From: Salminus brasiliensis
Lineage: Eukaryota; Chordata; Actinopteri; Characiformes; Bryconidae
NCBI RefSeq assembly: GCF_030463535.1
Contig: NC_132892.1
Location: 35,381,049 to 35,445,048, forward strand
DNA: 64,000 nucleotides
Reading direction: 5' to 3'
Positions 30,204 through 55,645 of this stretch are shown here, piece after piece (position 1 is the first letter of the stretch; every line of letters begins with the position of its first letter). Both the position numbers and the translations under genes were made by a program. A model generated the notes under the pieces. It ran no database searches and had not been told where the DNA came from. It saw only the letters and a program-made list of their open reading frames with translations.

Positions 30204-30880
30204 GTGTCTAACACCACCTCCTGGTAACTCCTGTTGCAGGGAGATGTTCACCACTGTAAGGCCAGGCGGTGCAGGAGAGGACGGAGTGGACCCCTGGAGG
30301 AGGAGGAGGACGAGGAGGAGGTCGGTGGGTCTGGGCACTGATCTGTCCATGGCAGATGTTGAACATCTGCAGACCGAAATCACTGAGCTGAGGAAGGAGG
30401 TGACCAGACTGGAGACGGAGCTGAACCGATGGAGGGAGGGAGGAGAGTCCGGCAGAGAGGTATGGGGTACTACTGGTGATGGGACGGAGTCAACCATGAA
30501 GGAATCCGGGTTTTAAAGAGAGCTGGTGCAGGATGTTGGATGATGGTCACCACCCTAATTCCTCACCCCTATATCCCCTCAAACTCATCCCATCCCAAAA
30601 GTACTGGATGGAGCTCCTCCACCATCATTCCAGAGAACACAGTTCTTCCACTGCTCCACAGCTCCTCAATGCTGGGGGGCTTTATACCCCTCTAGCCCAC
30701 ACCTGGCATTATTAGGCAGCATGGAGCCAATAGGGTCATGATGTTGATCTGCTCCAGAGAGTCCTATTCTATTGGCAGTACTTCTTCTCTACAGGGTCTA
30801 GACAAGCTGTGTGTGTCTGTATCAGCAATGGGTGCAGCTTACAGTAGCTGAATGCATTCATTAGAAGGGGTGTCCACAAA
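30204..30880. repeat. Segmental duplicate of 37834-38510
   Basis: This 677-bp block, comprising the coiled-coil exon plus a downstream MITE (about 30,540-30,880), is repeated at 37,834-38,510 in gene B with only about ten differences by eye. The flanks and the other exons of genes A and B are far more diverged. Confidence 0.85.
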
Positions 30881-33418
30881 CTTTTTTTTTTTAATCACTG
30901 AAATTCAGACTGATTTAATTTGTTATTAATGTCGTTGTATATCTCTTGGCCATTGCAGGACATGGAGAACGCCAGCTCACCGTCTCCTCGCTGGAAGAGT
31001 GAACCAAAGCCTGTACTGGTACAGATCCATGAGCCTACTGATGAAGATCAACACAAGCCGCCCAAGCTGGAAGATGAACCCTGTCTGTCTGCGATTTGTA
31101 AAACTGAACCGAACCCTTTCCAAACACACTGTGAACACTCCCACGGTCTACCAAAGCTGGAGGAGTTCTCCTATTATAAAGAGGAACCGCCTCAGATAGA
31201 AGAACATCACTCTGTGCACGGTGGTGATCTCCAGCGGATGGTCCGGACTCCACAAGCGACGTGTTCAGTGAGGCTGGTGGACTGCAGAAACATCCTGGAG
31301 CTGAGTGGAGAGATCAAACAAGAGAAGGAGGAAGAAGAAGAAGAAGAAGACGACGACGACACAGAGCTGTGTAACGATGTGGATGACGATGAGGACGACA
31401 GTGATGGGTTTGGTCCTTCTGGTAAGTTCATTAGCATCGGTACTAAAATCCACAAGAAGGTAATTAAGAAGGTAGGATTGGAGAGGATCACTACGTGTAC
31501 CAAGATGAAGCCTAGGTCAGGGCCACCCGTCCTCTAAAGCCAAAACCCAGATGTTTTAAGCAGGCTAGAAGTTCTAGCTTCTGGAAAAAGTAGTAAAGGT
31601 GCTCCAACAGGTTCTTCAGGTGATGCTACAGAAGACCCACTTTTGGTTCCATGAAGAGCCAGGCATCTCCTAACACTAAATATGACAAACTCTTTATGGA
31701 ACCTTAAGATCTTCCAAAGCATCACTCGAAGAACCTTCTGTAGCACCTTTATTTTTATTATTATTATTATATATTATATTATATATTTATCTTTATTATA
31801 GAGTTAATAGTTCTGCCCAGGCAGTTGGAACAAAATCCCGGGTGGATTTCAACTTTCCGAACCTGAATTTTTTCTGTTTTTTCTAACTGTGCTGGACTCC
31901 AGGCCCTGTTTCCAGCACCACTGCCCTGCACCGCCCACTCCCATCACACCTGGTCCATCTGATCCAGCCCTTATTGAGTTAGAGTGGAAGTGCTCTAGGG
32001 GCCAGTGGCCCTCCAGGAGCAGGGAGGTCTTGGTTTCTCAACCTTTACTGGTTGAACCGAAGCAGCTGGTGTGAATTCAGTGGTCTTCTCCTGAAATTCC
32101 AGATGAGCTCCCATTCCAGATGTCCTGCTCTGAAGATCTTGCTTCATAAATATTATTTGTATTACTGAATACTAGTCTTTTTCTTGAGTCTTTTATATTT
32201 ATTGATAATTATTGATGATATTGGCAGTAATTATTATTGTTAATGTCAGGTCTTACTGGTTGAACCGAAGCAGCTGGTGTGAATTCACTGGTTTTCTCCT
32301 GAAATTCCAGATGAGCTCCCATTCCAGATGTCCTGCTCTGATGATCTCATGAGCTTTGTTTGGAGTGGCTATTGAATGCTGCTCTTTTTGTTGAGTCTTT
32401 TATTTTGAAAAGTGGTTTTATGGTTATTAATATCATAACATATATTCTTACAATTATTTTTATTGATAATTATTAAACAGAAGCAGTTTGTGTAAATTCA
32501 CTGGTTTTCTCCTGAAATTCCAGATGAGCTCCCATTCCAGATCCTGGTCCTGCTCTGATGATCTTGCTTTATAAATATTATTTATATTACTGAATACTAG
32601 TCTTTTTCCTGAGTCTTTTATTTTGTAAAAGTAGTTGTATGGTTATTAATATCAAAAATGATTTTTTATTGATAATTATTGACGATATTGGCAGTAATTA
32701 TTATTGTTAATGTCAGGTCTTACTGGTTGAACCGAAGCAGCTGGTGTGAATTCACTGGTCTTCTCCTGAAATTCCAGATGAGCTCCCATTCCAGATGTCC
32801 TCTGATGATCTCATGAGCTCGTCTTTCGAGCCTGCAGAAGGACTAGACGATGGTGAGGACGGAAGAAGGAGCCCCTCGAGTCCTACGTCTCATCAGAGTC
32901 TCAGCGATGGAGAGCGGCTGTACAGCTGCTCCACCTGCAAGCAGAGCTTCCCTGCAGAATCAGAGCTTCTCCAACACTTGAAGGTCCATGTTGGTGGAGA
33001 GAAGCCCCATCACTGCGAACGCTGCGGGAAATGCTTCAAAAAACTCTTCAACCTGAAATCTCACCAGAGAATCCACACGGGAGAAAAGCCCTACCTGTGC
33101 ACGGAGTGTGGGAAGCAGTTCTCGCGGGAGTCCTACCTGAAGATCCACCAGAGAGTACACACCGGAGAGAAGCCCTACAGCTGCGCTGAGTGCGGGAAGC
33201 AGTTCAGGTGGGCGCAGGCTCTCGCCATCCACCAAAAAATACACTCCGGAGAGAAGCCCTATGTGTGTCTGACCTGTGGGAAGACGTTCTCGCAAGTGCT
33301 TTACCATCGCAGGCACCAAAGAGTGCATTCTGGAGAAAAGACATACAGGTGTCCGATACGTCTGGGGGGAAATTCCGATTTGCAGGGTTTCCCCTTTACC
33401 CCAGGTGTTAACTATTGA
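30244..33418 (+). CDS. Zinc-finger protein A, coiled-coil/C2H2
   Basis: Coding exons 30244-30459, 30959-31421, 32778-33418; 439 residues, phases consistent. Residues about 1-72 hold a basic stretch (RRRRTRRRS), [15 protein letters not shown] and a heptad-like helix (TEITELRKEVTRLETELN), likely for oligomerisation. The middle exon is acidic, with YKEEPP, the block TCSVRLVDCRN and a sumoylation-like IKQE, then a long E/D run. The last exon has five intact C2H2 fingers (CSTC, CERC, CTEC, CAEC, CLTC) joined by TGEKPY-type linkers. A sixth finger is broken after YRCPI by a frame change and ends in a foreign tail. Predicted nuclear DNA-binding regulator; target unknown. AATAAA at 33832. Confidence 0.85.
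31595..31750. mobile_element. 156-bp MITE in gene A intron
   Basis: The start AAAGGTGCTCCAACAGGTTC is mirrored at the end by GAAGAACCTTCTGTAGCACC; terminal inverted repeats of about 20 bp with a few mismatches. Confidence 0.6.
32020..32810 (+). repeat. Four tandem copies of the gene A exon-4 acceptor region
   Basis: CTGAAATTCCAGATGAGCTC (intron end plus exon start) occurs at about 32,091, 32,300, 32,512 and 32,766, spaced about 208, 213 and 254 bases. Only the last leads into the finger exon. The others continue TCCTGCTCTG instead of TCCTCTG and then run into AT-rich repeat copies. Confidence 0.8.
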
Positions 33419-33579
33419 TCCTCCTAGAGCCCTCAACCGTAGAACCACCAGCCTAATAGTGTGTAGGTCCCCCTCATGCCACCAAAACTACTCTCAAAAC
33501 AAGGCGTCCTGCTGTGGTCTCTGGCACCAGGACTAACGTCAGCAGCAGATCCTGCAAGTCCTGTAAGGTGTGAGGTGGG

Positions 33580-33830
33580 CGGAGCCTGCATGAGCATCAG
33601 TCAGAGCCTTGGGTGCCCGTGACCCTGTCGCCGGTTCACCGGTTGTCCTTCCTACCAGGAGGAGCACCCCACAAGACCTGCCGCCTGATGTTCTGGAGAT
33701 GTTCTGACCCAGTCGTTATCTAGAACATCACAGTCTGGTTCTTGTCAAAGTGTCTCAAATTCTTACGCCTGTCCATTTTTACTGCTTCCTCACCTTCATC
33801 ATCCTCAAGAACCGACTGTTCACTTCTTAT
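33580..33830 (-). mobile_element. Tc1/mariner-like relic downstream of gene A
   Basis: TGACCCTGTCGCCGGTTCAC and TGTTCTGACCCAGTCGTTA belong to a widespread fish Tc1/mariner-type element. Fragment only; a second relic is at about 51,225-51,395. Confidence 0.5.
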
Positions 33831-33839
33831 AAATAAAGA

Positions 33840-35320
33840 GACGTTCTCATTATGATTCTCGTACGTGTAAATATTAAATAGTAAATACGTGTGGTGTTTG
33901 GTCTGTAGCTGTGTCTAATTTTAACGATATTTAATGATGTTACACAATGACACAATATTCTTGTGATCATTCATTTTTTTATAGTATTATTATTATTACT
34001 GCCAACAGTTCACATTGTAAACATTTTGAACACTACTTTTGTTAGATATTTTTTTAAACAGTGCCTGTAGTGGCTGCATAAACCTATTAAATTATGTCGC
34101 ACTCTACATTAGAGAGTAATCATGTTATATAATTGCATTTATTATTGTTAGTCCTTTGATTAACACTGTACTCTTTTGTTGCCTTTTATTTATTTAGTTA
34201 AAGAGGCTGTATGAAACTTGTACAAAAAGAAATCCACTTTGCTTTTTATGGAATAGAATTATTTAATATTATTGTTTATATTATTGAATGCTACTCTTTT
34301 ATTTTACATAGTGGTTGTAGAGTTATTAATATCATTACAAATGTGGCACTTTGCTTTATGGCAGTATAATCTTACAGTTATTGTGTTATTGATCATTATT
34401 GTTGCTACTGGCAGTAATTATTATTGTTAATATGATTGTTGAAGCTCAACAATCCAAAAAAAACCCAGCTATAAAACCCCTATAAACTCATTATAACAGA
34501 CTAATAAACATCACTAACAACCTGGGGTCGTATTTAAGGAGGTTTTAGTTCATTAGCACCGGTCTCGTTGGCTTCTCGTCTGAATTCTTCCGGTCCACCT
34601 TAAATACCGCAGCAGGGCCGCAGCAGGGCCGCAGCAGGGCCGCAGCGCCGGCATGTAAACCTCCGCAGGATTTAAGGTGGACCGGACAATCGAACAGCAG
34701 CCAGCTATAGCCTCCTGATTAGTTCTGCGATTTAATCAGATATTATTATCATTATATATATATTATTATTATATATATTATATCCGCGAGATAATAATAA
34801 ATATTTGCATTGATATTAATTTGTACAATAAAAGTGAACACGTATAAATACAGTCAGAAAAAGAAGTCCCCTCAAACAAAGGGCAACAGGTCCACGTCAG
34901 CATAGGTAAATATCACGAAATGTTATTAAATAAGCAGGCTGGTCCTTTCAATAGATTTTATATATTATTATGTGTTTTTTATAATTATTTTAAAAAGAAC
35001 AATAATAATGATAATAATAACTAGTAGTAATAGTATTAGTTCTTTATTTTGGTCTTTATTAACAATTTAACTAACCCAGACTAAATACATACACAAATAA
35101 AAATGCAACAATTACTAAAACATAACAAGTCACTAAACTATTAGAAAAGAAAATTAACAAAAAATATTCATTATGTATTATAACAATTATAACAATGTCT
35201 GTACCTAAAAGAAAGGACTTTTATTCTGAAGTGGACTCCCTGAAGTCCCTTTTTGGACAGTGTGAACATTCTTTCTGACATATTATTTATTAATTGTAAT
35301 TGTTTCAGACTCAAGCTTCT
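33840..35320. other. AT-rich interval between genes A and B
   Basis: No gene seen. 34,240-34,440 holds decayed copies of the gene A intron repeats (CTTTTATTTTACATAGTGG, GGCAGTAATTATTATTG). A 16-bp perfect inverted repeat (CCGGTCCACCTTAAAT at 34,590-34,605 and its complement at 34,670-34,685) brackets an 11-bp repeat (GCCGCAGCAGG). An AT microsatellite lies at about 34,740-34,790. Confidence 0.5.
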
Positions 35321-35334
35321 GTTAAGTCTTGCAG

Positions 35335-35425
35335 AGAGATGGTCACCACTGTGAGGACGGACCCCTGGGCCCCTGGGCACTGATCTGTCCATGGCAGATG
35401 GACATGGGCATCTCAAAGACCTTTC
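35335..35425 (+). pseudogene. Relic of the coiled-coil exon
   Basis: GGTCACCACTGTGAGGACGG and GGGCACTGATCTGTCCATGG match the start and middle of the exon at 30244-30459. About 60 bases are missing between them and the helix region is lost. No open frame of use. Confidence 0.65.
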
Positions 35426-35464
35426 ATGTACTGCGGTTGTTGTTGCTGTTGTTGTTGTTGTTTA

Positions 35465-35660
35465 CATTAACGTTTACATTTACAGCATTTAGCTGACGCT
35501 CTTATTCAGAGTGACGTACAGGGTCACTTGTATTACAGAGGAGGGTCAGTGTAGTGTTGGGAGTCTGGCCCAAGGACTGTTATTGGTGTAGTGCAGCACC
35601 CACAGTGACCCAGACCGGGAACCGAACCCCAGTCTCCCACATGGTGTGATAGCTCACTGA
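35465..35660. repeat. SINE-like fish repeat
   Basis: ACATTTACAGCATTTAGCTG, ACGCTCTTATTCAGAGTGAC and GGGAACCGAACCCCAGTCTC are hallmarks of a very common teleost interspersed repeat. Confidence 0.6.
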
Positions 35661-36099
35661 CAGCTCGTGGTTTTATCTGTTGTTGTTGTTATTTTTGTTA
35701 ATACTTCATTATATAATAGAATATATATATATAATATATATATGATAAAATATAGAATATCTAATAATATATAATAAATCCTTTCCTACACTGCAGTCAT
35801 TGCTTTACAAAGCAGAAAATACAAGAATAATCAAACTATTTGAATAATAGAAATAAACACATGATTAAACACCACGAAATGAAAATAATTGACATTGACA
35901 TTGAAATTTAAATACAAATTCTATCCATGTTAACCCACCCGCTGCATTTTACACATTAACGTGATGGATGGAGTCGACCGTGAAGGAATCCGGCCGGGTT
36001 TCTTACGGCCTACTGATTCTTCTAGAGGTCTGAGGTCTACTTTATGGCTTGTGGTCTTAGTGCTGATGCCCTATGAGCCATTCTTGTTGATTCATTTGA

Positions 36100-36180
36100 C
36101 ATGCACTGTTTGGACAAAAGTATTGGGACACCCGCTCATTCACTTTCTCTTCTGAAATCCAGGGTATTAAAAAGAGTTTG
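36100..36180. repeat. MITE end (GGACAAAAGTATTGGGACAC)
   Basis: One of several isolated ends of the same MITE type (others at about 37,320, 37,545 and 46,865, and inverted at 54,255 and 54,510). Confidence 0.55.
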
Positions 36181-36609
36181 GAGTAACTGTCTCTGGATTC
36201 TGGAGGAGGAGCACGGCTGACTGCAAAACACAATGAAAGGAAGATAATTTCACATTAAAATGATTAATAAAACAAGATAAGATAATGCTTTATTAGTCCC
36301 ACGGTGGGGAAAATCTCAGTGTCACAGCAGAAAAGGGACAGCAAGACACTCAGATGCAAAAAGGTAGATACATTATTAAATTACCACCATATACACAAAT
36401 AATAGAATAAATTATAGAAGTAAAGAAAGCAACAATAACAAAATTATTTACAGATTATTTGGAAGTATGTATACTATGTTAATCAATCAAACTATATAAA
36501 ATGATGAAGTTCAGCAAGTTTGTCACAAAGGTTTGATGGATGATATTAGTCTACAAACGTGGAGTTGGGAGCTGAACTCCTCGGCAGGTGGCGCTACCGC
36601 CTCTCTGCC

Positions 36610-36832
36610 TGCTGGAGACTCTTATTTTGAAAAGCGCAGCTTCGATGGCGGCTGGTGTGCGTTTCTCTGAATGTCTCTGGTTCTGAGTGGACCTCTTTAG
36701 AAGCAGGTGTTTTCTGGGTGTTGATCAGCTCAGAGCTCCTCACTGAAGAGTTCACCTGGCTGAGTGAAGGAGTCTGGGAGAACCTCCTGTCAGAACCGGG
36801 TCCACGGTTCTGCTGAGTTCAGGTGCTGCTCG
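36610..36832 (+). promoter_or_regulatory. Putative promoter and non-coding exon 1 of zinc-finger gene B
   Basis: ACTCTTATTTTGAAAAGCGC at about 36,615 corresponds to the gene A promoter box. A consensus donor (CTCG/GTAAGT) lies at 36,832/36,833. No long reading frame. Assignment rests on position and on the shared motif. Confidence 0.5.
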
Positions 36833-36929
36833 GTAAGTCGTCCAGACTCTAGACCCATATGCCAGGTTCTCTGCCAGGCCTGGTCCAGCACCGCGCAGGT
36901 GTGCTGGTGAGGAGTTCTACCTAGCTAGC

Positions 36930-37830
36930 CTAGTCCTGCGCATGCGCACAGTGTGTGTGCACGCTGTAGCTTTTGCCCAGCATGGGTCCCCTGTTTGGGG
37001 TTTGGTGGTTCAGCTGCTTGACCCACCTGGTCATCGTGGTCAGCCAGCTTCACCAGACCAGTCCACCAGCCTGGTCATGCTGGTAGACCAGCTATCCCAC
37101 CAAACCCTGTACCCTGAGCTTGTCAATCAATTGCAGCATCAGCATCAGTTACCTTCCCCATCATCCACGTACCCTCCACCCCACTCTGCACTGGTGTAGT
37201 ACTGGTCATTTAGGCTGTCCAGATCTTCTACCTCTATCCGAATATCCCCCTGCCTGTAGTTTATAATAAACACACCGGTAGGACATTTTGAGAAGCTTTT
37301 GCATTAGACATACTACATACGGACAAAAGTATTGGGACACCCAAATTGTAGATCTATAAGATAAGACTTTATTGATCCTGGAGACAATTGTAGTAAGAAG
37401 TGGACGTCTCACCCAAACAGGGTCTTGAACCCTGGACCCTCCGATTAAACTTCTGATGCCTAAAATGTTACAAGGGACACAGTCCAGAAGATCTCAGTCT
37501 TATTGTATTTTGGACAAGTCATGTGTTACACACCCCCCCTGGACAAAAGTATTGGGACACCCCTCCTAATCATTGAATTTAAGTCTGATTCAGTCCCGTT
37601 CAGCTACAGGTGTATAAATCCAGCCTCTAGTCCTGCAGTCTGTCTTTCCTCCACACATCAGTGAAAGAACGGGAGGTTCTGAAGAGCTCACTGAACTCCA
37701 GCGTGGTTCTGTATGTAATAGGAGACACCGCTGCACCAACTACAACAAGAACTCAGCTGGTGAAATCTCCTCCCTCCTAGATCTTCCTCCATCAGCTGTG
37801 AGTGGTGTTATTATTGAACAGTGGAAGCGT
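36930..37830. repeat. Intron 1 of gene B: repeats
   Basis: 37,005-37,110 repeats ACCAGCC/CTGGTCATGCTGGT motifs common in fish genomes. MITE ends lie at about 37,320-37,345 and 37,545-37,650. No exon recognised. Confidence 0.45.
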
Positions 37831-37873
37831 TGAGTGTCTAACACCACCTCCTGGTAACTCCTGTTGCAGGGAG

Positions 37874-40306
37874 ATGTTCACCACTGTAAGGCCAGGCGGT
37901 GCAGGAGAGGACGGAGTGGACCCATGGAGGAGGAGGAGGACGAGGAGGAGGTCGGTGGGTCTGGGCACTGATCTGTCCATGGCAGATGTTGAACATCTGC
38001 AGACCGAAATCACTGAGCTGAGGAAGGAGGTGACCAGACTGGAGACGGAGCTGAACCGATGGAGGGAGGGAGGAGAGTCCGGCAGAGAGGTATGGGGTAC
38101 TACTGGTGATGGGACGGAGTCAACCATGAAGGAATCCGGGTTTTAAAGAGAGCTGGTGCAGGATGTTGGATGATGGTCACCACCCTAATTCCTCACCCCT
38201 ATATCCCCTCAAACTCATCCCATCCCAAAAGTAGTGGATGGAGCTCCTCCACCATCATTCCAGAGAGCACAGTTCTTCCACTGCTCCACAGCTCCTCAAT
38301 GCTGGGGGGCTTTATACCCCTCTAGCCCACGCCTGGCATTATTAGGCAGCATGGAGCCAATAGGGTCATGATGTTGATCTGCTCCAGATGGTCCTATTCT
38401 ATTGGCAGTACTTCTTCTCTACAGGGACTAGACAAGCTGTGTGTGTCTATATCAGCAATGGGTGCAGCTTAAAGTAGCTGAATGCATTCATTAGAAGGGG
38501 TGTCCACAAACATTTGGACACACATACTGTGGGTTTCAAATTGTTTCAAGCTCCTGTGCTATTGCTATGGTGCCCCGTGTGGTTGCTAGGCCGGTGTCAT
38601 GCTGGTACATGTGATTACTGTGCTATTCTTAAACAGTTGCTATGCTGTCCCAAGTGGTTGCTGTGCAGTTGCTAGGCAATTGCAAATGCTCTTCAAAGCT
38701 TGGAAGCATGTGCACACCGCATGCTCAAAAATGAAAGAATTCTTTCAGGATTGGTCACTTCGGGCTGCAGCAGCACTGTCCCGATGACTTTCACCCAAGC
38801 TTTAATGAGATCAGCCGTTCTTGGTGGTCTTGCTTGCTGACGATGAGGTTCTGACTGGCGTCTCTCTGGCTGGTTTTCCTGTTCAGAACAAAACCCAAAA
38901 CATAGTATTTCCATGTTCTGCTATCACAACTCCAGGACTGTTGGTCTGAAGGTCTTTCAGAAAACCCTTTTTAAACTCTTTGGGATTTTTTGCAGGTGTC
39001 GGAGAACAACGTGGCAACGTCCATTTGCTGGAAATGGGAACCAGACACAGTACAGTTGCAGATCCATGAAAACATAAGTGCTGACCACCTTACAACACCC
39101 ACGCTGGAAGATGGACCCTTTCGGCCTGAGTGTAAGACTGAACCAGACCACGAAGACCACGATCACAATCACGGCCTATCAGTGTTTGAGGATGGTTCCA
39201 CTTTTTACAAAGAAGAACCACCTCCAGTAAAAGAGAGTCACTCTGTGATGGATGATGGAGTCCAGCAGGCGGCCCAGACTCCGTTAAAAACATGTTTAGT
39301 GAAGCTGGTGGACTGCAGGAACATGCTGGAGATGAATGGAGCTATCAAACAAGAAGACCTGTGTAACGGCAACACTGGCAATGAAGATGATGGGGAGAAG
39401 AACTTTACTCTTTCAGGTAACTTCAAAACCTTTAATGGGGTCAATATGACCCATCGCATATACAAGTTCTCATTCTCCTCTTCTGAATTTCCAGATTTCC
39501 TGCAACTGAGGTCCTCCGATGTCAGGAGTGAGCCTGAAGGAGAACCAGAAGAGGACAGTAGAACCTCCTCAAGTCTCGCGCCTTGTCAAAGTCTAGTAGA
39601 TGGAACGAGGCTGTATCGCCGCTCAGCCTGTGAGAAGACTTTCACTATAACATCTGATTTCTTCAAACACTTGAACCAACACAATACAAAAAATAATAAG
39701 CCCTACAGTTGCACTGAGTGTGGAAAGACGTTCTCACAACGGTCACACCTGAGGAATCACCAGAGAATACATACTGGAGAAAAGCCCTACAGTTGCCCTG
39801 AATGTGGAAAGCAGTTCACGCAAAAGTCCCATCTGAAGAACCACCTAAGAACGCACACTGGAGAAAAGCCGTACTGTTGCAATGAGTGTGGAAAGCACTT
39901 CACGCACTCCTCAAAGGTGAAGATTCATAAGAGAATACATACCGGAGAGAAGCCTCTCATTTGCCTCACTTGTGGAAGAAGCTTCTCTGATCCCTCGACC
40001 CTTCACAGGCACCAGCGGATGCATGCTGGAGAAAGGCCACACTGTTGTACTGTGTGTGGAAAGCAGTTCTACATAGCGTCAGAACTGAAGGTTCACCAGA
40101 GAATACATACTGGAGAAAGGCCTTTCCGGTGCACTGAGTGTGGAAAGACGTTCCCGAGATCATCAAAGTTGAAGGAACACCAGAGGATACATACTGGAGA
40201 AATGCCTTACGCCTGTCTCACCTGCGGGAAAAAATTCCATAACCGTTCTTCCTATGACAACCACCAGCGAGTACATACTGGAAAAAGGGTTCATGCCACG
40301 GCGTGA
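37874..40306 (+). CDS. Zinc-finger protein B, coiled-coil/C2H2
   Basis: Coding exons 37874-38089, 38996-39416, 39495-40306; 482 residues. The first exon encodes the same coiled-coil segment as gene A ([15 protein letters not shown]). The second has YKEEPPPVKESHSV, TCLVKLVDCRNMLEMNG and IKQE. The last has a degenerate leading finger (first Cys lost, YRRSACEKTF) and seven intact C2H2 fingers (CTEC, CPEC, CNEC, CLTC, CTVC, CTEC, CLTC) with TGEKPY linkers. The intron 39417-39494 is only 78 bases, a multiple of three, and has no stop, so an unspliced form would carry 26 extra residues. AATAAA at 40946. Predicted nuclear DNA-binding protein; target unknown. Confidence 0.88.
38540..38700 (-). repeat. 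TAGCAACC-type repeat in gene B intron
   Basis: Repeated GTTGCTAGG and GTTGCTATGC words are the reverse complement of the family spread over 44,090-46,420. Confidence 0.55.
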
Positions 40307-40554
40307 CCTCCTGTTTGTATCAGTTGTGTTATTAGAGGACTTCAAAGGCAGGATGGTCTGGAGACAGGAGTTTTACATTCGTCCCAGATCAGGCTGATCA
40401 GCCGGGACGTGTTTATGGGACTGGAGAGTGGAGCTAACATTGCTAACTCATTTTTGTAAACGGTGGTTGGGTCATATTTATTGGTTTTGGGCCAAATTAG
40501 TAAATGTGTGTATATTAATGATCATTAACATACTAGAGCTGCAGGTTCGAGAGG

Positions 40555-42665: not shown

Positions 42666-42668
42666 CTA

Positions 42669-44089: not shown

Positions 44090-44371
44090 CATGGGTTACC
44101 ATAGCAACCACTTGTAACAGCATAGCAGCTGCCCAGCAACCACTTGAAATGGCATAGCAAACATTCGAAACAGCATAGCGACCGCCTAGCAACCACCTGG
44201 GATACCTTAGCAACAGCATACCAAGCAGTTGGAACAGTGGAGCAGCAGCTGCCTGAGATCAGGCCACTGCATAGTTATAAAGATCGGCAGCGCCTTTGAT
44301 GTTTGTTTGATTGATTGATTGATTGATTGGTTGTTTAGATGATCAGTCACCAAAATGATATTTGTGAATGA

Positions 44372-44413
<42 letters not shown>

Positions 44414-46420
44414 GTGATTGGCAATTATATAGCAGTGCAGTTGCAAATGACTAACTGAAACAAACCTGAGTTATCCTAGCAACTACATAACAACCACCTA
44501 GCAACCACTTAAAAGCATGGCAAGCATTTTGAATGGCATGGCAACTGTGTGGCAGAAACCTGGGATACCTTAGCAACGGTGTACCAAGCAGCTGCCTGAG
44601 ATCAGACCACTGCATAGTTGATGGTCAGCTCCTTTGTTGTTTGTTTTTGTTTGTTTGTTCAAATGATCAGTCACTATTATTATTATTATTATTATTAATA
44701 GTGATTTCTCATTTTATAGCAGTGTTGTTGCAAATGAGCAGCACAGCAACTTCCTAACTGAAACAAGCAACAAACACCTGGGTTGTCCTAGCAACCACTT
44801 AACCACTTAAACATAACAGCCATCTAGCAACCACTTAAAAAGGCTTACTAAGCCTGTAGAACCACATAGCAACTGCTTGGCAACCATCTGTGATACCTTA
44901 GCAATAGCATACAGAGAGCTTGGGAAAGCAGAGCAGCTGCCTGGCCGTGTAGATCAGCGCTGTGCTTCTGTCGGATACCTCACAGTGACCCAGGAGAACC
45001 ACACCTCCACATTTACACCGATAATGGAGAGCGTCCAGAACCTGAAACCTGAACATCTGAACATCTGGACTAAACAAAGAATTTGTCTTAGGGTGTTAAA
45101 AAAGGCAGAGAACGGTTGCTCTGTTTATTATTATTATTATTATTATTATATGGTTGTTGTTGTTGTTGTTGTTGTTGTTATTAGTGATTGCAGGTTGTAA
45201 AGCAATGCAGTGCAGATGCAAATGAGCAGCACAGCCGCTGCCTAGCTGAAATATCACCTGCTTCACCACAGCAACCACTTGCAACAGCGTAGGAAACGAC
45301 ATCACAGCAACAGCCTTGCAACAACCTAGATCTCATTTGAAATGGTATTGCAAGGTATAACAACTGCTTAGCAACCACCTGGGATACCTTAGCAACAGTA
45401 TAGCAAGGGTTTTTTTATTTGTAAAGATGATAGTTAGTAGTGGTTGAGTTGTTTTTAAAGAACATCTAAAGAACATTTTTGATTATTATTATTAAAGAAC
45501 AACCTGTTAGAACCTCTAGACCCTCTAGAACCTTCTAGAACCCTAACCTGTTTAATAATAATAAAAAGAAGTACAGTAAAACTCAGGACTTTATTATTGT
45601 CATTACATTATTATTATTATTATTAGTGATTGCACCTCGCAATGCAATGCAGTCCAGTTGCAGACTAACAGCACAGCCGCTGCCTAGATGCAAAGCCACC
45701 TGGGTTACCATAGCAACCTCTCAGGCCAGCATAGCAGCCGCCTAGCCACCACTTGGAGCGGCCTAGCAACCACTTGGAAAGCAGATCAGCTGCTTAGCAA
45801 CCACATTGCAGCCACCTGGGATACCATAGTCAACATCTCGCAGCCATCTAGCAACACCATAGCAACTGCCTAGCAACGCTTTGGGAATTGCTTAAGCTGC
45901 GCAGTCGCTCGGCTCCCTCCCTGCTCTCCTTCATCGCCGCACTCCCACACTGCCGCTGGCGGAGGGGGCGGGCTGCAGCTCGCCCGGGTCTGCCGTGTGT
46001 GCTTCAGGTTCCTGCCTGGGCTGAGCTGAGCTGACGGGCAGGGCTTAACTTCACCCCCTGCTCTCCTTTTCAGAGGGATGTCCACCAATTTAGGACCAGG
46101 AGAGGGTGGAGGGGACCCATGCTGGAGGAGGAAGAGGAGGTCAGTGGGCCTGGGCACAGATCTGTCCATGGCGGATATCGAGCACCTGCAGATGGAGGTG
46201 GCTGAGCTGAGGAAGGAGGTGGCCAGACTGCAGGCGGAGCGCAGGCAGGGGAGGATGGTGGAGTGTAAGACGGAGGTACGTGCTAGTGATGTGGGCTATC
46301 CTTTTACTAACTGATGGTGATGTATGTCATGTATGTGTACTGATGCTCTAGAAAACATAGCAACCGCCTAGCAACCGCATAGCAACCACCTAGAAAGCAA
46401 AGCAACTGCCTAGCAACCAC
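44090..46420. repeat. TAGCAACCAC-type dispersed repeat field
   Basis: Many copies of ATAGCAACCACTT, CCTAGCAACCACC and GGGATACCTTAGCAAC through 44,090-44,230, 44,470-44,590, 44,780-44,920, 45,240-45,400, 45,700-45,890 and 46,355-46,430. They are interrupted by (ATT)n/(TTA)n and (GTT)n tracts at about 44,372, 44,674 and 45,127. The coding exon at 46078-46275 lies near its right edge. Confidence 0.75.
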
Positions 46421-48854
46421 ATTGCACACTGAAGACATCCTAGTTAATGAATACATTCAGCTACTTTAAGCTGCACCCATTGCTGACACAGATGTGCAAA
46501 TGCACACACAGCTTGTCTAGTCCCTGTAGAGAAGAAGTACTGCCAATAGAATAGGACTATATATATCACAACCCTATTGGCACCATGCTGCCTAATGCCA
46601 GGTGTGGGCTAGAGGGGTGTAATAAAGCCCCCCAGCATTGGAGCAGTGGAGGAACTGTGTTCTCTGGAATGATGATGATGATGGTGGTGGTGGTGGTGGT
46701 GGTGGTGGAGCTCCATCCAGTACTATCCAAGCAGTTGGGGAGGATGAGGGGTGGTGATCATAACTGTGCCAGTTGAGACCCTTTGCAGGTGGCACATCAC
46801 ACAGTCACTGTTCTAGCTCCTAAGGGGTGTTTTAGGGTTATCAATAAAGCTCAGTACACTATATGGACAAAAGTATTGGGACACACCTCTGAGCAGCCTG
46901 TGATCCTTACAGTAGGCATGTACTTCTGTTTCCTCGGTTGCTGCAGGAGCTGGAGCACGCCATCACTCCATCGTTCAGCTGCGCGAGCGAGGACCTGGTC
47001 GTGGTGCAGGTCGATGAAAACGATGAAAGCGCTGAAAACGATGAAAGCTTTGAAAACAGCGAAAATCTTGGCGGAGACCAAGACATGCTGCCCAAGATGG
47101 AGGACCAGCCCTGTCTGAGTAAGGTCTGTGAAACTCAGACCAACCACACACAAACGCAGTACGGACCCCACCACCAGCTGGGGCTGAGGGATTTCCCCAT
47201 TATCTGTAAAGAAGAGCCGGTAGAGGAAAGCCTGTCGGTTCATGATGCCGGACTCCAGCGCGTGGTCCAGAACCTGTTTAAGACCTGTTCGGCGGGACTG
47301 ATGGAGTTCAAGGCCATACCGGACATGAACGGGGAAATCAAAGAAGAGGTGGAGATGGATCATGAAAGCGAAGGTTCTGAGGACGAGAATGAGGATGACG
47401 AGGAGGATGAAGGTGACGAAGACTTTGTACCTTCAGGTAACTTGAAGGAAATCTTATCAGTAAAATATTTAAAATATAAAGATTAGAAAATTAATAAACA
47501 TCTACACTGCTGCCGTTCTCCGTACTCCTCACCTCCAGTACTGAATTATAGGCCTGAAGAAAGACCGACTAGATGGGCTTATCCATTAAAACCTGTAGGA
47601 GGAAGCTGGTAGAACATCCATGTTATCTTCTGGACAGGAAATATATTTATATTAGACTACAAATACACTGCTGGCTCCCGTCTTACCAAGATAGCTCACT
47701 CCTGTGGATGCGTTTATACTGTATAACATATTTTTCTATATATCTTTTTAACAAACGTGTTTTTTTTAGCATGTTACTAATATACCATTGACTGTAAGCT
47801 CATTTGATTGACGGTAGGAGCTTTAAATAAAGTGAATTAGTGCAGTCAAGCAGTAAGTATTTAATAAAAAGCATAATTTAATGTATTTTTCACCATATTT
47901 AAAGTAAGTAAGTATATTTTCTAGCATTTTTACAGCACACAGTTCAGCACTGGGTTCGGGTTTCAGTGTGAAGATCTTTAGATGATCCTGTTTGCTTTTG
48001 CTTCATTTTCATTTTCCTCTTCCTAAATTCCAGGAGACTTCCGACAGATGTACTCCGACATCGGGAGCACGTCCTTTCAGCCTCTGGAAGGCCAGGACAA
48101 CAGGCCGAAAAGGAACCTGCCGAGTCCCAGGTCTCACCAGAGTCTGGGTGACGGAGAGGTGCCGTACTGCTGTTCCATATGTGAGCAGAGCTTCAGTGAG
48201 AAGTCTGACCTTCTCAAACACCTGGAGCTGCACAAGGAGGAGAAGCCCCATCACTGCGACCAGTGTGGAGAAAGCTTCACCACCTTATTCAAGCTGCAGT
48301 CCCATCAGAAAACGCACACCGGGGAGAACGGCTTCACCTGCACGGTGTGCGGCAAGCAGTTCCTGCAGGCGCTAAACCTGAGGATTCACATGAGGATCCA
48401 CTCCGGCGAGAAGCCCTACGTCTGCCCCACCTGTGGGAAGAGCTTCTGCCAGCCGTCCGCCTTCCGGAGACACCAGCGAGTGCACACCGGAGAGAAGCCC
48501 TACCACTGCACCGAGTGCGGGAAGCAGTTCGCCAGAGCGTCGATGCTGAAGGTTCACCAGACGATCCATACCGGAGAGAAGCCCTTCGGCTGCCCGGTGT
48601 GCGGAAAGGAGTTCTCCCAGGCCTTGTATCTGAAGAGCCATTGGAGGGTGCACACCGGGGAGAGGCCTTACAACTGTCCCATCTGTGGAAGAGACTTCTC
48701 CCACCTGTCCTCCCTTCGCAGGCACCAGATCGTTCACACTGGGAAGAAGCCGTACCAGTGCGCCGAGTGCGGGAAGCAGTTCACCAGAGCCTCCAAGCTG
48801 AAGATCCACCAGAGATTGCATTCTGTGGAGAAGGCCTTTTCTGCTCTCCCCTGA
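46078..48854 (+). CDS. Zinc-finger protein C, coiled-coil/C2H2
   Basis: Coding exons 46078-46275, 46947-47436, 48034-48854; 502 residues. The first exon holds [20 protein letters not shown] and a helix ([16 protein letters not shown]). The middle exon is acidic: [17 protein letters not shown], then a diverged conserved block ([27 protein letters not shown]) and an E/D run. The last exon has eight intact C2H2 fingers (CSIC, CDQC, CTVC, CPTC, CTEC, CPVC, CPIC, CAEC). The LVDCR motif is replaced by LMEFK, unlike A, B and D. Acceptors CTGCAG at 46946 and TTCCAG at 48033 fit. AATAAA at 49387. Predicted nuclear DNA-binding protein; target unknown. Confidence 0.88.
46435..46790 (-). mobile_element. 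MITE in gene C intron 1
   Basis: TGAATACATTCAGCTACTTT, GTAGAGAAGAAGTACTGCCA and CCAGGTGTGGGCTAGAGGGG are the inverted counterpart of the element at 30,540-30,880. It contains a (GTG)n expansion at about 46,684-46,709. Confidence 0.65.
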
Positions 48855-50130
48855 TTCCTCTGCTCAAACCAATGCGTGCATCTAATCTGTGGATTAGGGG
48901 TGGGCGATATGCTGAAAATATTATATCACGATATTTTTTTTTATGCACAGACAGAATGCAGCAGTAGTGATACGCTGAGAAAAGCGTACTGTCAGAATTC
49001 ATCACCTTACAGTCAAATCTGGGGGTTATGCTGATTCGTCTTTAAAAGGGAGGGGTGTGAAATGCCTGCAGTTTGCTTCTCTAGTCCCTTTAGGGGCTGA
49101 TGTGGATCCGCATCAACAGTACAACCCATTAAATTGTACAGTATCAGGGCCGGCATGTTCGCCTGGAGCTAGAGCAGCATCAGATTGGGACACTACAGCA
49201 CAGTTTTACAGTGGAAAATTCAACATTAGCCACGTTTTCAGATGCTGCCCGTTTCTGAGCCCGACGCTCGAGGCTCAGTGTAAAACTAAAGAAGCAGACT
49301 TGGGTCGCTGATCTGTCTCCGGCTGAATGGAAAATGCATCACGTTTGTCCATAAACTTTTATTTGATGACCACAGAATGCTGCCAGAATAAAAGTCCCCA
49401 TTCTGAATCAGTGTAAACCCAAGGATGGAGATCTAGCCTAGTCTGATGCTGATGCTGAGACAAACGCACATGAAAAATAGAGGATGTTTTTAATGGGAAA
49501 ATGCAGCGTTTATTTCTGTAGAATAATAAATGGTGATCTATTAGATCGTCCAGACATTCAGCTCTGCAGTAAATTCGTCCAGTGTTGGTTTGGAATTATC
49601 GGCTAACTGGAATCGACCATCCAGCAGCAGAGACGTTCTATATCCTGCAATACTGATAGCATTGATATCAAAGAGCATCCCTGTACAATATATCCGCCGT
49701 CTCAGAAACTCTGAATCTGGATCGTTTCGGTGTTCTTTCTTTGTCCTGTCGGGTTCAGGCTTGTTAATTATTGATGATTATTGTTGATTATTGTTAATTA
49801 TTGTTGATTATTGTTAAACCGTGGGTCCGTTTTTATTATTTAAGCTTCACAGGTACTGATGATTAATCTGCCCACCGTTCTTCCTCTAACCGTTTCCTAT
49901 TTTTTTAGCTGTTGTGCAGAAATCAGAGCGTATGCTGATCAAAGCGACTCTCATCAGTTAAAAATCAAGTCAAATTATTGATCAGCTTCTGTAATTTATC
50001 AATGCATGCGTTGGTAGAGGTTTGTGCAGTTGGGTTGTTTTCCTCACAGTATTTTTACATTGGAAATAATGCGTTTATAATTATTCCGACTTTTCTATCA
50101 TTTCCATTCTTGGACTTTAATACCTGTACA
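48855..50130. other. Gene C 3' region and intergenic DNA
   Basis: Probable 3' untranslated region to about 49,410. A hAT-like MITE edge (GGGGTGGGCGATATGCTGAA) lies at about 48,896-48,935. The remainder is unrecognised; short ATTGTTGATT repeats lie at about 49,770-49,815. Confidence 0.45.
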
Positions 50131-50139
50131 AGTGTTCTG

Positions 50140-50425
50140 CTGTTCCACATAGAAGCTGATCCACCAGAGAATTCATACCGGACTCTCTTCTCTGAGAAAT
50201 ACATACTGGAGAGAAGCTGTGCTGTTGGTCCTCTGTCCAGTCAGACTGTTGCAGTGATGAGTACATACTGGAGGTCAGCTGACTTGTCGGTTGCTGAAGC
50301 TTCATGGGAGCCAGATCTGTACTGCTTGAAGCGACATTCTCATTATTCATAATTCATACCGAGGAGAAGCCCCACCCACCCATAACAAAGGCCAGCGAAT
50401 TCATACTGGAGAACAGTCTGTCCAG
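50140..50425 (+). pseudogene. Relic C2H2 finger array
   Basis: CCACCAGAGAATTCATACCG, ATACATACTGGAGAGAAG, GAGTACATACTGGAGG and CGAATTCATACTGGAGAAC are decayed HQRIHTGEK-type linkers on the plus strand, about 2 kb beyond gene C. The Cys pairs are gone and the frame is broken. Remnant of another gene or of lost extra fingers. Confidence 0.6.
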
Positions 50426-50429
50426 CTGT

Positions 50430-51177
50430 TTGCTGCTGTCCACTGAAGCAAGCCCAGCCACTGAGCTCTGGGAGGAGGTTCGTTCACATCCAAAGATTTG
50501 GATTATTGACCGTTTCACTCTGAATGAGTTATTGATCAGTCGGACATGTTTGGTGTCTGATGTTTTACACTGGAGGTTAAGGTCACTCACAGCTGCACGT
50601 TCTGGTCACATGATCTGATTTCTTAGCTTTTTTGTTTTTTGCCTTAACTCAGGCCAGAAGTGAGCGTCTGCGCTTTTATTTTAAAGGGATGCTGGAGCTG
50701 TCTCTGAACTCGTCTCATTTCTGATTATTGATCTTCGAGGCTTTATTTGAGAATCACTTTATTTTACGATGTTTAAATTCTTTGGGGGGTGATCTGTTAA
50801 TGACCCGGTCAGGCCTGTTCTGCAGTAACTGAATGGACTAAAGCACAGAGCGGTTAAGTTATAGGGCCGTTTGGTTTAGGTGGCTTGTATGTATCAATTT
50901 ATTGCTCATATAAAAGAAATAAAAATCTAAAGCTGAGCTTTGAAAAGTGTTCAGCTGAGCTTGACTTCCGTCGTCATCATTACTAAGCGTGCCTTAGTGG
51001 TTAATTAGAGGACCGTGGGCCTCCTCGAATGCGCTCTGACGGGTTTGGTAGAAGGTTCATGTCTGATTGGAGTCGTTTCCATGTTTCAATGTCATTAAAA
51101 TATTACAATAAAATAAGAAAAAACATTGACTTTTATTGTGTGTTAAAATGGTTACCATAGTTACAGAGATTGTATTG

Positions 51178-51215
<38 letters not shown>

Positions 51216-51730
51216 GAGAGCCATATGTCCTCTGTGTCCCCGTTGGGACATGGACTCCACAAGACCTCTGCCAGATGTTTCGGAGATGTTCTGACCCAGT
51301 CGTCACTGCCATCAACTTCAAGAACTGACCGGATCATCAGTGTTGTTAGGTTGTATGCCACGCCCACAAAGAAGGCCACACCCACTAACTGACACAATAA
51401 ACCTGCTTGATACGTTTATGTATATATTAAGGTAGTAATGCTAAATTATTTTTATTATAATTATTTTAAAATATTTTTTATTATTTTTGTTAATATTTCA
51501 AAATTTAAGCATCAACAGACATATCATATAGACCAAATATCATTGAGTATGTAATTAAATACCTATACTGTATTAATACATGTAATTAAATACTCTATTA
51601 AATACTATTTAATTCTTCTAAGTAATATTTGCATTGATGTAACGTTATGATTGGTTTATTATTTAATATCTATTAGCCAGCTCCTGTGTAATGATCCCCA
51701 GCTCCGAGCTGTCTGGGTCCTCCTCCTGTT
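50430..51730. other. Intergenic interval C-D
   Basis: No gene. GCTTTTATTTTAAAGGGAT at about 50,672 resembles the promoter-type box. A (TTA)n tract lies at about 51,177-51,216. A Tc1/mariner-like relic (TGTTCTGACCCAGTCGTCAC) lies at about 51,225-51,395. AT-rich sequence follows. Confidence 0.5.
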
Positions 51731-51739
51731 GTGTGGGGT

Positions 51740-52003
51740 AGGGCTTTTATTTTGACACCCTGTGAATTCCCCTCCGCGCGGTCGGTCGGTCGGTCGGGTG
51801 AGCGGCGGGGCGGCAGTGCGGGCGGATCTCTCGGGCTCAGGTGGTTGAAGGAGGGCAGCAGCGGCAGCTCCGGACAGGTCACCGCCACACGCCGGGCCGG
51901 GGAGTCCCGCGGGCGGACAGTCCGGGGGGATGCGGGCGTTAATGGGCCGCCGGAGGGCGAGGGGAGTGAACACTGGCCGTCTCGTGCTGCTCGGACCTCA
52001 GTG
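51740..52003 (+). promoter_or_regulatory. Putative promoter and non-coding exon 1 of zinc-finger gene D
   Basis: GGGCTTTTATTTTGACACCC at about 51,743 is followed by CpG-rich sequence with (GGTC)n and a consensus donor (CAGTG/GTGAGT) at 52,003/52,004; the next acceptor is at 52,806. Same layout as genes A and B. Confidence 0.55.
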
Positions 52004-52219
52004 GTGAGTCTGACCCCCCGTCCTCCTCAGACCCAGCGCGGGGCAGTTAGCCTGGATACCAGCCCTCCTGTCTCTTAAATCAGGATCAATCTGTCCGGAT
52101 TGATATTAATAATTAATAATATCTGAATATTAAAACTTCAGTTTCCTCCGTTTCCTGTCTGTCAGCCACAGGCCACGCCCTAATCTCTCATTACACATCA
52201 CACTGACCCAATACACACT

Positions 52220-52765
52220 GCACCACAGCCTGCAGCAGCGTAGCCCCGCCCACCCAGCCTGCAGCTGTTTAACCCCACCCACTTAACCTACAGCAGTTTA
52301 GCCCCGCCCACCCAGCCTGCAGCTGTTTAACCCCACCCACTCAGCCTACAGCTGTTTAACCCCGCCCACTTAACATACAGCAGTTTAGCCCCACCCATTC
52401 AGCCAAAAGCAGTTTAGCCCCACCCATTCAGCCAAAAACAGTTTAGCCCCGCCCACTTAACATACAGCAGTTTAGCCCCACCCACTTAACATACAGCAGT
52501 TTAGCCCCACCCATTCAGCCTACAGCAGTTTAACCCCGCCCATTCAGCCAAAAGCAGTTTAGCCCCGCCCACTTAACATACAGCAGTTTAGCCCTGCCCA
52601 TTCAGCCTACAGCAGTTTAGCCCCGCCCATTCAGCCTACAGCAGTTAAGCCCCACCCATTCAGCCAAAAGCAGTTTAGCCCCGCCCACTTAACATACAGC
52701 AGTTTAGCCCCGCCCATTCAGCCTACAGCAGTTTAGCCCCACCCACTTAAGCTACAGCAGTTTGC
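52220..52765. repeat. 29-30 bp minisatellite in gene D intron 1
   Basis: Units of the type CAGCAGTTTAGCCCCGCCCA followed by TTCAGCCTA or CTTAACATA, about 17-18 copies, ending just before the exon-2 acceptor. Confidence 0.9.
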
Positions 52766-52846
52766 CCTGCAGATACTGACTAAGGCTGTTTGTCCTGAAT
52801 CCACAGACGGGACGGGACAGGTGGGGGCGGGGGTAACCCGGACAGA

Positions 52847-54306
52847 ATGACAGAACCTCTGCTGGTGTCTGAGAAGCTTGAGGAGGAGGAGCGAGTTCTG
52901 GTAAAGTCCTGCGACTCTGAGACGTCCTCCGTACCGGTACCGACCCGCTGCAGCCGAGACGCACCGTACACCAAGTCTGTGGGGACGGATCTGTCCATGG
53001 ACGACATCGAGGCGATTCAGCTAGAAAATCACTACCTGAGGAAGAGGGTGGGCTCGCTGATGAAGAGGATAAAGCAGCGCGACTTCCACGACCTGAGGAG
53101 AGGGGTAAGCTCCAGACCGGACGTCTGCCCAGAGGGGCTTTAACCCCTTAATGTCCTGAAAATGACAATTTCTCTTTTTAATGATTTATTTTAAACTGTA
53201 TTAATTAACACTTTGAATACGTGACTTTTATTTTGTATCATCATAAATCTGTAGCATTGTCTGGTGCTTGCAGTGCACAGATCGTCCTCCAGGGAGTAGA
53301 AAAGGTGTCTGATTTTATTATTGTTTATTGATAATAATAAATAAAATCATTAATATGATCATTTATTAATATTATTATTATTTAAAGTAACTCATTATTA
53401 ATCATCACACTGCTGTTGCAGGTCTCGAGAACCCACACGTGTGCTATAAAATACGATACGCTGGGCTTTAAAGGGTTAATCTGTTTTATTTACCACCCTG
53501 TTATTTCACCTCACAGTGAAACACACTGATTGTCCTTCTATGGAGGGCTCGCTTAGATTAGCCTAGCCTAGCCTAGCGTAACCAAATCCTAGAAGAGATG
53601 CTTTTGACACCGTTGCCATGGTTACCTCTGGCAGGCCGATGTTTCCGGCCCATCCAGCCTGGACTCGGACTGTAACGGCGGAGACAGGCGGACGGCGAGG
53701 ACCCCGGTAAAGCTGTGCTCGGTGCGGCTGGTGGACTGCAGGAGCGGCGCGGAGGACGAGGATCCGCACTGCCAGCTTTCATCGGACGAAGAGGCGGAGG
53801 AGGAGGACGACGTCTTCAAAATCGTCCTCCCGGGTACAGGGCAACGTATTACATCACAGTGTCCAACCGTCCAATCACAGAACCCCGCCGTATAAACACT
53901 GCTGTCTTACCTTACGTCTAGTAGGGGGCAGCCATGCATCGTATGATGAATGCACCAGATGCCCAAAAGTTTGTGGACACCCCTTCTAATGAAAGCATTC
54001 AGCTACTAAATGCACACACACAGCTTGTCTAGTGCAGTAGAGAAGAAGTACTGCCAATAGAATAGGACCATCTGCAGCAGATCAACATCATGACCCTATC
54101 GGCTCCATGTTGCCTAATAATGCCAGGCGTGGGCTAGAGGGGTATAAAGCCCCCCAGCATTGAGCCCCTGTCTCTAGTAGAGACAGTTACTCTAACAAAA
54201 GCAGGATCAGCTGTTTAATAGCCTTGATTTCAGAAGAAACAGTGAATGCACGAGAAGTGTCCCAATACTTTTGTCTTGTCTGAAAGCTGTAAAGGTGTTG
54301 TAGTAG

Positions 54307-54340
<34 letters not shown>

Positions 54341-55645
54341 GTCTAAAGGCAGGAATGTATCGTATGATGAATGCACTAGATGTCCAAAAGTTTGTGGACA
54401 CCCCTTCTAATGAAAGCATTCATCTACTAAATGCACACACACAGCTTGTCTAGTGCAGTAGAGAAGAAGTACTGCCAATAGAATAGGACTCTCTGTGAAT
54501 GCACAAGCAGGTGTCCCAATACTTTTGTCTTGTCTGAAAGCTGTAAAGGTGTAGTAATAGCTGTCTTTCTCTCTCTCTCTCTCTCAGGGTCTAAAGACAG
54601 GAGGGGAGAAGACTCTCCGTCGCGGCCCGTCCCCAAGAAGGAGAAACGCTATCACTGTTTGTACTGCGAGAAAAGCTTCTACAACTCCGGAAACCTCAAC
54701 GCCCACCACCGCATCCACACGGGGGAGAAGCCGTACCAGTGCTCCTACTGCGACAAGAGCTTCACCCAGTCCGGCCAGCTGAAGTACCACGTGAGGAAAC
54801 ACACCGGGGAGAAGCCGCCGGAGCCGCGGAAAAAGAAGAAGAAGGAGGGCAAAAAAGAGACGTGTCCGTGTCCGTACTGCGGGAAGTGCTTCCCCAGCCA
54901 GTCCCACGTCACCATGCACCAGAGGATTCACACCGGAGAGAGGCCGTACACCTGCTCCCACTGCGGCAAGAGCTTCCGGCAGATGGGCCGCCTGCGGGCG
55001 CACGAGAGGCTCCACACCGGAGAGCGGCCGTTCTCCTGCTCCGAGTGCGGGAAGAGCTTCAACGAGAAGAAGGACTTCAAGATCCATCAGACGGTTCACA
55101 CCAAGGAGAAGCCCTACCTGTGCTCCGTGTGTGGAAAGAGCTTCTCCAGACCGGACGGCCTTTACTTCCACCAGAAAATCCACAGCGACGTCAGGGCCCA
55201 CCTGTGCTCCCTGTGCGGCAAGAGCTTCATCCGCCTGGGCGCCCTGAAGAACCACCAGCGGACGCACAGCGACGAGAAGCCCTACCTGTGCCCCCTTTGC
55301 GGGAAGTCCTTCAAGACTCCGCCGTACCTCCAGAAGCACATCCGGACGCACTCCGGGGAGCGGCCCTACAGCTGCTCGCTGTGCGGCGAGAGCTTCTCGC
55401 GCTCCGACAACCTCGTCAGCCATGAGAAACGGCACAGCGGCGAGCGGCTGCACGAGTGCCCACGCTGCGACAAAACCTTCATCCTGCCAGAGCTGCTGGT
55501 GGCCCACCAGGAGGTGCACACTGGAGAGCGACCCTACCGCTGCTCCGTGTGTGGAGAAACCTTCAGCTACTCGGGGTCTCTGCTCACACACCAGAAAAAA
55601 CACACCACGGAGGAGCTCAGCGACAGCCCCCCTCCAGATCCCTGA
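52847..55645 (+). CDS. Zinc-finger protein D, coiled-coil/C2H2
   Basis: Coding exons 52847-53104, 53635-53833, 54588-55645; 504 residues. The first exon has SVGTDLSMDDIEAIQ followed by a charged helix (LENHYLRKRVGSLMKRIKQR). The middle exon is short: an RTPVKLCSVRLVDCRS block, then an acidic stretch. The last exon has eleven intact C2H2 fingers (CLYC, CSYC, CPYC, CSHC, CSEC, CSVC, CSLC, CPLC, CSLC, CPRC, CSVC). A basic spacer (EPRKKKKKEGKKE) after finger 2 is probably a nuclear-localisation signal. The finger exon is markedly GC-rich, so a long antisense frame (54584-55603) exists but has no family motif. AATAAA at 56628. Most divergent of the four paralogues; predicted nuclear DNA-binding protein. 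Confidence 0.88.
53935..54590. repeat. Tandem duplication in gene D intron 3, with MITEs and (CT)n
   Basis: 53,935-54,350 and 54,352-54,600 share ATCGTATGATGAATGCAC, CAAAAGTTTGTGGACACCCC, GTGTCCCAATACTTTTGTCT, a (CT)n tract and GGGTCTAAAG. The first copy (to 54,350) has CTCTGGGTCTAAAG and lacks the AG acceptor; the second has CTCAGGGTCTAAAG, the real exon start at 54,588. Confidence 0.8.

Follow-up and report, generated by a model that had tools for sequence, protein, structure and literature searches.

A chromosome-confined family of C2H2 zinc-finger genes with a predicted coiled-coil exon and a predicted disordered, motif-bearing exon in the fish Salminus brasiliensis

C2H2 zinc-finger (ZNF) genes that encode an effector in a set of N-terminal exons are well known. 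In KRAB zinc-finger proteins, the exons of the N-terminal module are followed by one all-finger exon, and the genes form local clusters with diverging fingers. KRAB-ZNFs and TRIM28 are reportedly absent from ray-finned fishes (PMC11603059), which leaves the mode of action of their many ZNFs a question. Among fish zinc-finger proteins, the N-terminal modules found in the literature by title were FiNZ, KRAB-like and the KRAB of PRDM9. FiNZ is described as 28 amino acids encoded by a single exon that precedes the finger exon, with about 700 genes in zebrafish, and knock-down of fish ZNFs derepresses transposons (PMC10547256). For KRAB-like and FiNZ proteins, co-immunoprecipitation was reported to be consistent with a possible TRIM33 interaction (PMC11603059). 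Here, we describe a family of eight C2H2 loci (A-H) on one contig, C15 (NC_132892.1), of the 1.07-Gb Salminus brasiliensis assembly GCF_030463535.1. Genes A-D lie within the window, the whole stretch of 64,000 nucleotides that was analyzed (C15:35381049-35445048).

According to splice-site models built from the sequence, A-D have three coding exons each, GT-AG introns and one terminal stop (Table 1). GTDLSM is present in exon 1 of all four, intron phases are 0 then 1 throughout, and all fingers, counted by regular expression, fall within one exon; the shared GTDLSMxD plus coiled coil, the phases and the single finger exon had been proposed in a sequence-only reading of the window and hold. The same reading had counted four genes, which proved an undercount, as loci E, F, G and H were found on the same contig beyond the window (E at C15:35627150; the GTDLSMxD-pattern match of H at 33939895). 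Phases 0 and 1 recurred in all seven loci with three readable exons (A-D, E, G and H). The eighth, F, is degraded and consists of exon 1, a short exon 2 with a stop and an uncertain finger exon. Pfam zf-C2H2 and zf-H2C2_2 scored above cut-off for A and for the exon at 59354-59926; fingers were detected by regular expression in B, C, D, E and G and by translation in H. Residues of the fingers that contact bases vary widely between members in the pairs compared.

Some details of the models deserve mention. The second intron of B spans just 78 nt and the frame is open across it, so an unspliced reading of B is possible; its first finger lacks the first Cys in translation. An AG lies shortly upstream of the ATG in all eight loci, G's context being a poor acceptor, so there may be a 5′ untranslated exon ahead of exon 1. 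As the AG-to-ATG distances (4, 4, 4, 41, 12, 11, 11 and 28 nt for A-H, by eye) have no common phase, such an upstream exon would probably be untranslated. Past the broken sixth finger of A, the sequence at window 33346-33900 has one 51-bp match elsewhere in the window.

Relatedness of the members was evident outside the fingers. Finger-free parts of A, B, C, D, E and G matched each other in all 15 pairs (blastp, E≤1.5e-4 for a six-sequence database). Genome-wide searches were limited to this one genome. The GTDLSMxD DNA pattern had 11 exact matches compared with 3 for the reversed control, and nine of the 11 were on C15, corresponding to the eight loci and a remnant. In searches with single exons, exon 1 of C matched itself, A and B (1e-14), E, F and G (0.03-0.04) and D (0.35), together with chance-level places on C8 and C4, and exon 1 of H matched F, E and G (E≤1.1e-4), D (0.28), a place on C6 (1.3) and A and B (2.8). 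Exon 2 of A matched itself, B, C, E (0.022), D (0.88) and a chance-level place on C14; exon 2 of D matched A (0.002), B (0.4) and two chance-level places; and exon 2 of E matched B (0.0027) and A (0.019). Such single-exon E-values are weak (in the H search, the C6 place outranked the true members A and B), and more diverged members of the family could be missed. Within these protein and DNA-pattern searches, no convincing member was found off C15 in this genome.

Several candidates were rejected. Single-exon matches on C14, C8, C4, C9, C1 and C6 were at chance level (E 0.57-2.7). Two GTDLSM-pattern matches on C2 (L045 and L046) had no leucine heptads by eye, and L046 had no fingers. Two LVDC-pattern matches, on C7 and C16, had no fingers in the 3 kb examined around them. 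As to a general property of finger genes in this genome, no GTD[LVIM][ST] or LVDC-type motif was detected in six other finger loci (of 4735 candidate finger matches) within 5 kb on the upstream side of a finger, a distance beyond which exons would escape. At C2:35856614 (minus strand), an isolated SVGTDLSMKDV occurs in a 3-kb locus without fingers; it could be fortuitous or belong to a small exon of a different gene.

Exon 1 carries the motif GTDLSMxD[IV], with either Ile or Val after the Asp. GTDLS is invariant in A-G (7/7) and is GTDLT in H, and mean pairwise identity over ten columns of this stretch was 0.77 (A, C, D, E, G and H). Structure prediction, proposed as a check in the sequence-only reading, gave a confident helix for exon 1 and disorder for exon 2. 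For exon 1 of A (AlphaFold, six alignment rows; B, identical to A, was omitted), a single helix was predicted at residues 36-70, directly after GTDLS, and nothing in 1-35. Mean predicted local distance difference test (pLDDT) scores were 97 for residues 41-50, 96 for residues 51-60 and 69.9 overall. The heptads are near-regular, with hydrophobic residues in 27 of 30 core cells of A, C, D, E and G; the best other register had 13 of 30. The core reads L-I-L-V-L-L in A, B and E and is equivalent elsewhere apart from a single position in each of three members (C, Arg; D, Asn; G, Ala). Among the PDB matches of the exon-1 profile, a designed coiled coil ranked first (9e-8); a further 44 were listed, all weak, mixed and largely coils, including SYNZIP2, GABA-B receptor, a herpesvirus tegument protein, PspA, ATF-2 and GCN4. 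Thus, exon 1 has the predicted helix with a heptad core expected of a coiled-coil ZNF that may oligomerize. The ratio of nonsynonymous to synonymous substitution rates (dN/dS) for the exon-1 core was below 1 in each of 14 pairs of A, C, D, E, F and G (0.19-0.84, with the identical F and G counted separately).

Exon 2 was predicted to be disordered (mean pLDDT 54, no element of at least 4 residues), and it had no PDB matches at E≤5. Its highest pLDDT (70) was at residues 101-110, which form the LVDCR block of A. By six-frame scan, C-x-V-[RK]-L-V-D-C-R was located in A, B and D (window 31274, 39305 and 53728) and in a diverged form in C (47298), as the sequence-only reading had it. The accompanying claim for KEEP did not fully stand: this motif was found in A, B and C (31178, 39209 and 47208) and not in D. 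The block is the most conserved nine-column stretch of exon 2, with a mean pairwise identity of 0.59 compared with 0.28 for the next best (A, B, C, D, E, G and H), and the columns invariant in a six-row exon-2 alignment held one Ser and the block's Cys and Leu. The exact DNA pattern of the block had six genome matches and four in the reversed control; four of the six were A, B, D and E, and the remaining two had no fingers nearby.

A second motif of exon 2 is K-x-E. Compared with 5000 shuffles of exon 2 of A, B, C, D, E and G, KxEP occurred 9 times (0.41 expected; reached in no shuffle) and KxE 18 times (5.48 expected). The strict form, [VIL]KxE, occurred 5 times (0.88 expected; 3 shuffles were as high) in four of the six exons, a broad form occurred 16 times (3.38 expected), and KxEP was over-represented in A, B, C and E. 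Factors with SUMO synergy-control motifs likewise have K-x-E-P motifs in a disordered region; here, in contrast, the residue ahead of the Lys is often not Val, Ile or Leu, and D and G have none.

The explanation that we favor, with confidence that is about even, is that A-H are one small C2H2 subfamily, formed by local duplication and confined to one chromosome, of oligomerizing and probably repressive DNA-bound regulators with a short-motif arm. The fingers, which differ among members, would pick the DNA site. The exon-1 helix would form a short coiled coil through which a protein associates with itself or with sister proteins, as dimers or larger assemblies. Exon 2, acidic and predicted to be disordered, would present short linear motifs. 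In four members these include K-x-E(-P) lysines that resemble SUMO acceptors and may be SUMO-modified; the other motif is the C-x-V-[RK]-L-V-D-C-[RK] block, which a partner may bind. Repression is probably the likelier direction, by analogy with the fish ZNFs whose knock-down releases transposons (PMC10547256).

Several points weigh against this explanation. Repression is taken solely from that analogy. F is degraded and the finger array of A is truncated. Exon 2 of D and G has no KxE and the LVDCR block is diverged in C and H, so neither motif is required in every member. The paralogues are not independent, so that the four KxE-positive members are not four independent observations, and the shuffle and conservation figures overstate the signal. 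The exon-1 dN/dS values come from 29 codons per pair, with some dS above 1. In addition, pattern counts exceeded those of controls barely for the block and modestly for GTDLSMxD; the weight of the pattern searches lies in where the matches fall, not in the counts.

A bolder extension, which we consider improbable, is that these genes form a separate fish silencing branch, in which a capped coiled coil together with SUMO and partner motifs would serve as the effector and the coil exon would be copied between neighbors, so that proteins of different DNA specificity could still pair. A small subfamily with a defined N-terminal module, a nine-residue block and natural block variants (C and H) offers a tractable test set, and exon-1 copying provides a second testable idea.

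Evidence for such copying comes from two blocks. In A and B, a 683-bp block holding exon 1 (window 30203-30885 and 37833-38515) is 98.5% identical, with 10 differences, one of which is inside the exon; judged by sequence, it is a recent copy. F and G share 189 bp at 100% identity (C15:35448443-35448631 and 35455300-35455488), a stretch that starts at the presumed acceptor and ends inside exon 1. The 200-bp flanks of the A/B and F/G blocks gave no alignment better than E 0.28. Exon 1 could therefore have moved as a unit between neighbors, by gene conversion or duplication, keeping sister coils compatible for mixed dimers. These near-identical and identical blocks inside unrelated flanks, and the extra partial exon-1 copy at 35329-35400, point in that direction. 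However, there are just two events, C, D, E and H were not homogenized, and a conversion tract may stop at the exon merely where homology stops. We regard this reading as doubtful, although it survives best among the alternatives and is compatible with the explanation that we favor.

Ordinary drift is an unlikely account, in which A-H would be a small decaying C2H2 cluster with a generic coiled coil, an acidic linker and no specific partner. Signs of decay are indeed present, including the degraded F, the truncated A, the degenerate finger 1 of B and the exon-1 remnant. The PDB matches are generic, and exon-2 dN/dS, calculated for 8 chosen pairs, ranged from 0.35 up to 0.82. On the other hand, seven loci retain open frames and identical splice phases, and most residues of GTDLSM, and of the block in A, B, D and E, are kept despite differences at silent sites.

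In the exon-1 model, S35 of GTDLSMxD[IV] is just ahead of the predicted helix and would thus occupy the N-cap, with D38 at N3 and L34 and V39 at the hydrophobic staple positions. In the model, L-S-x-x-D-[IV] fits a capping box plus hydrophobic staple, which leaves G-T-D unexplained; much of the conservation could thus be explained without a cofactor. An alternative, which we find quite unlikely, is that GTDLS is a non-canonical PxDLS-type peptide for the corepressor CtBP, with the coiled coil doubling the motif for avidity. GTDLS is invariant in all but H and shares the DLS core with CtBP-binding repressors such as Knirps, whose PMDLS is cited as CtBP-recruiting (PMC9890238), and RAI2, two ALDLS motifs of which bind CtBP, showing that non-proline motifs are known (PMC11187106). 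Unlike PMDLS and ALDLS, however, the motif here starts with Gly and then Thr, with Gly at the Pro position in all eight loci. Moreover, its L-S is at the predicted helix start, whereas the LDL of RAI2 is described as pairing as a beta strand (PMC11187106), and the capping reading already accounts for L, S, D and I/V.

The N-terminal module is unnamed in Pfam and NCBIfam. The Pfam scan, listed to E≤5, covered A (best 25 of 36 families), B from exon 2 on and the N-terminal parts of C and D; the NCBIfam scan covered exons 1-2 of A and D. No accepted domain was found in exons 1-2 of A-D (Pfam) or of A and D (NCBIfam, with one match at E 0.18 for D), in agreement with the distinct architecture suggested by the sequence-only reading. 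DUF1192 was rejected, scoring 23.0 bits in A and 21.0 in C against a cut-off of 25.5. As that reading had also proposed, no KRAB, SCAN or BTB was among the Pfam families listed. Differences from KRAB zinc-finger proteins are the lack of a KRAB match in A-D and the presence of a predicted coiled coil and a disordered acidic exon. The strings GTDLSM, SVRLVDC, SVKLVDC and GTDLTM occurred in no paper searched, a weak negative since sequences are rarely printed in text. The module may well exist in other fishes as unnamed predicted proteins. A comparable GTDLS-plus-coil start may occur in cyprinid predicted proteins, and a TQTDL start in THAP proteins derived from transposons.

FiNZ of cyprinids resembles the present family in being found in fish C2H2 genes with a short, conserved, Glu-rich N-terminal part. 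By its description, however, it has a single exon and about 700 genes (PMC10547256), whereas all seven readable loci of the present family have two N-terminal coding exons and the loci number eight in total. This plan does not fit canonical FiNZ, and the sequence-only reading had not recognized a FiNZ domain either. Actinopterygian KRAB-like ZNFs, likened here by description alone, also combine a fish N-terminal module with fingers (PMC9101882, PMC11603059). The least probable alternative is that the N-terminal helix belongs to the KRAB-like or FiNZ domains or does the same work. Here, the shared general plan of a module ahead of fingers in fish and the TRIM33 co-immunoprecipitation report (PMC11603059) are set against the lack of a Pfam KRAB match and the single-exon plan of FiNZ (PMC10547256).

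Table 1. Features of the zinc-finger family in the window (positions within the window)
Feature	Position	Strand	Basis
Gene A exon 1, GTDLSMADV and coiled coil	30244..30459	+	Model, predicted helix 36-70, heptads
Gene A exon 2, acidic, WKSEP/CKTEP/YKEEP/IKQE and TCSVRLVDCR	30959..31421	+	Model, motif scan
Gene A exon 3, 5 fingers, array stops within the sixth	32778..33418	+	Model, regular expression
Degraded additional exon-1 copy, GTDLSMAD retained (GTDLSM at 35376), coil gone	35329..35400	+	Motif scan, genome pattern
Gene B exon 1, one base differs from A	37874..38089	+	Model
Gene B exon 2, WKWEP/CKTEP/YKEEP/IKQE and TCLVKLVDCR	38996..39416	+	Model, motif scan
Gene B exon 3, one degenerate finger, then 7 regular	39495..40306	+	Model, regular expression
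Gene C exon 1, GTDLSMADI and coiled coil	46078..46275	+	Model, heptads
Gene C exon 2, CKEEP, IKEE, diverged LVDCR-type block	46947..47436	+	Model, motif scan
Gene C exon 3, 8 fingers	48034..48854	+	Model, regular expression
Gene D exon 1, GTDLSMDDI and coiled coil, Asn at one core position	52847..53104	+	Model, heptads
Gene D exon 2, short, LCSVRLVDCR, without KxE	53635..53833	+	Model, motif scan
Gene D exon 3, 11 fingers	54588..55645	+	Model, regular expression
6-finger exon that may belong to locus F (a conjecture; F exons 1-2 lie beyond the window end)	59354..59926	-	Pfam fingers

Other features were noted around the family. Beside locus E, two finger exons of a different, CSQCG-rich type begin at C15:35632507 and 35637257. 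Three stretches of repeated units, at window 58716-59306, 60209-61292 and 62214-63316, look by eye like long open frames. Remnants of Tc1/Sleeping-Beauty-type transposases occur on the minus strand at 12558-13073, 3345-4125, 8427-8768 and 17600-18070; the first has a helix-turn-helix domain by Pfam, 3345-3701 matched no Pfam family, and the other remnants were assigned by resemblance. A series of fish-egg-lectin-like exons extends over window 1397-25727 on the minus strand. Pfam Tectonin was confirmed for both exons tested (10750-11088 and 24353-24670), and one lectin-like exon matches fish-egg lectin 4ruq at 1.9e-28. By eye, a similar lectin-like stretch lies ahead of another finger locus on C11 (L040).

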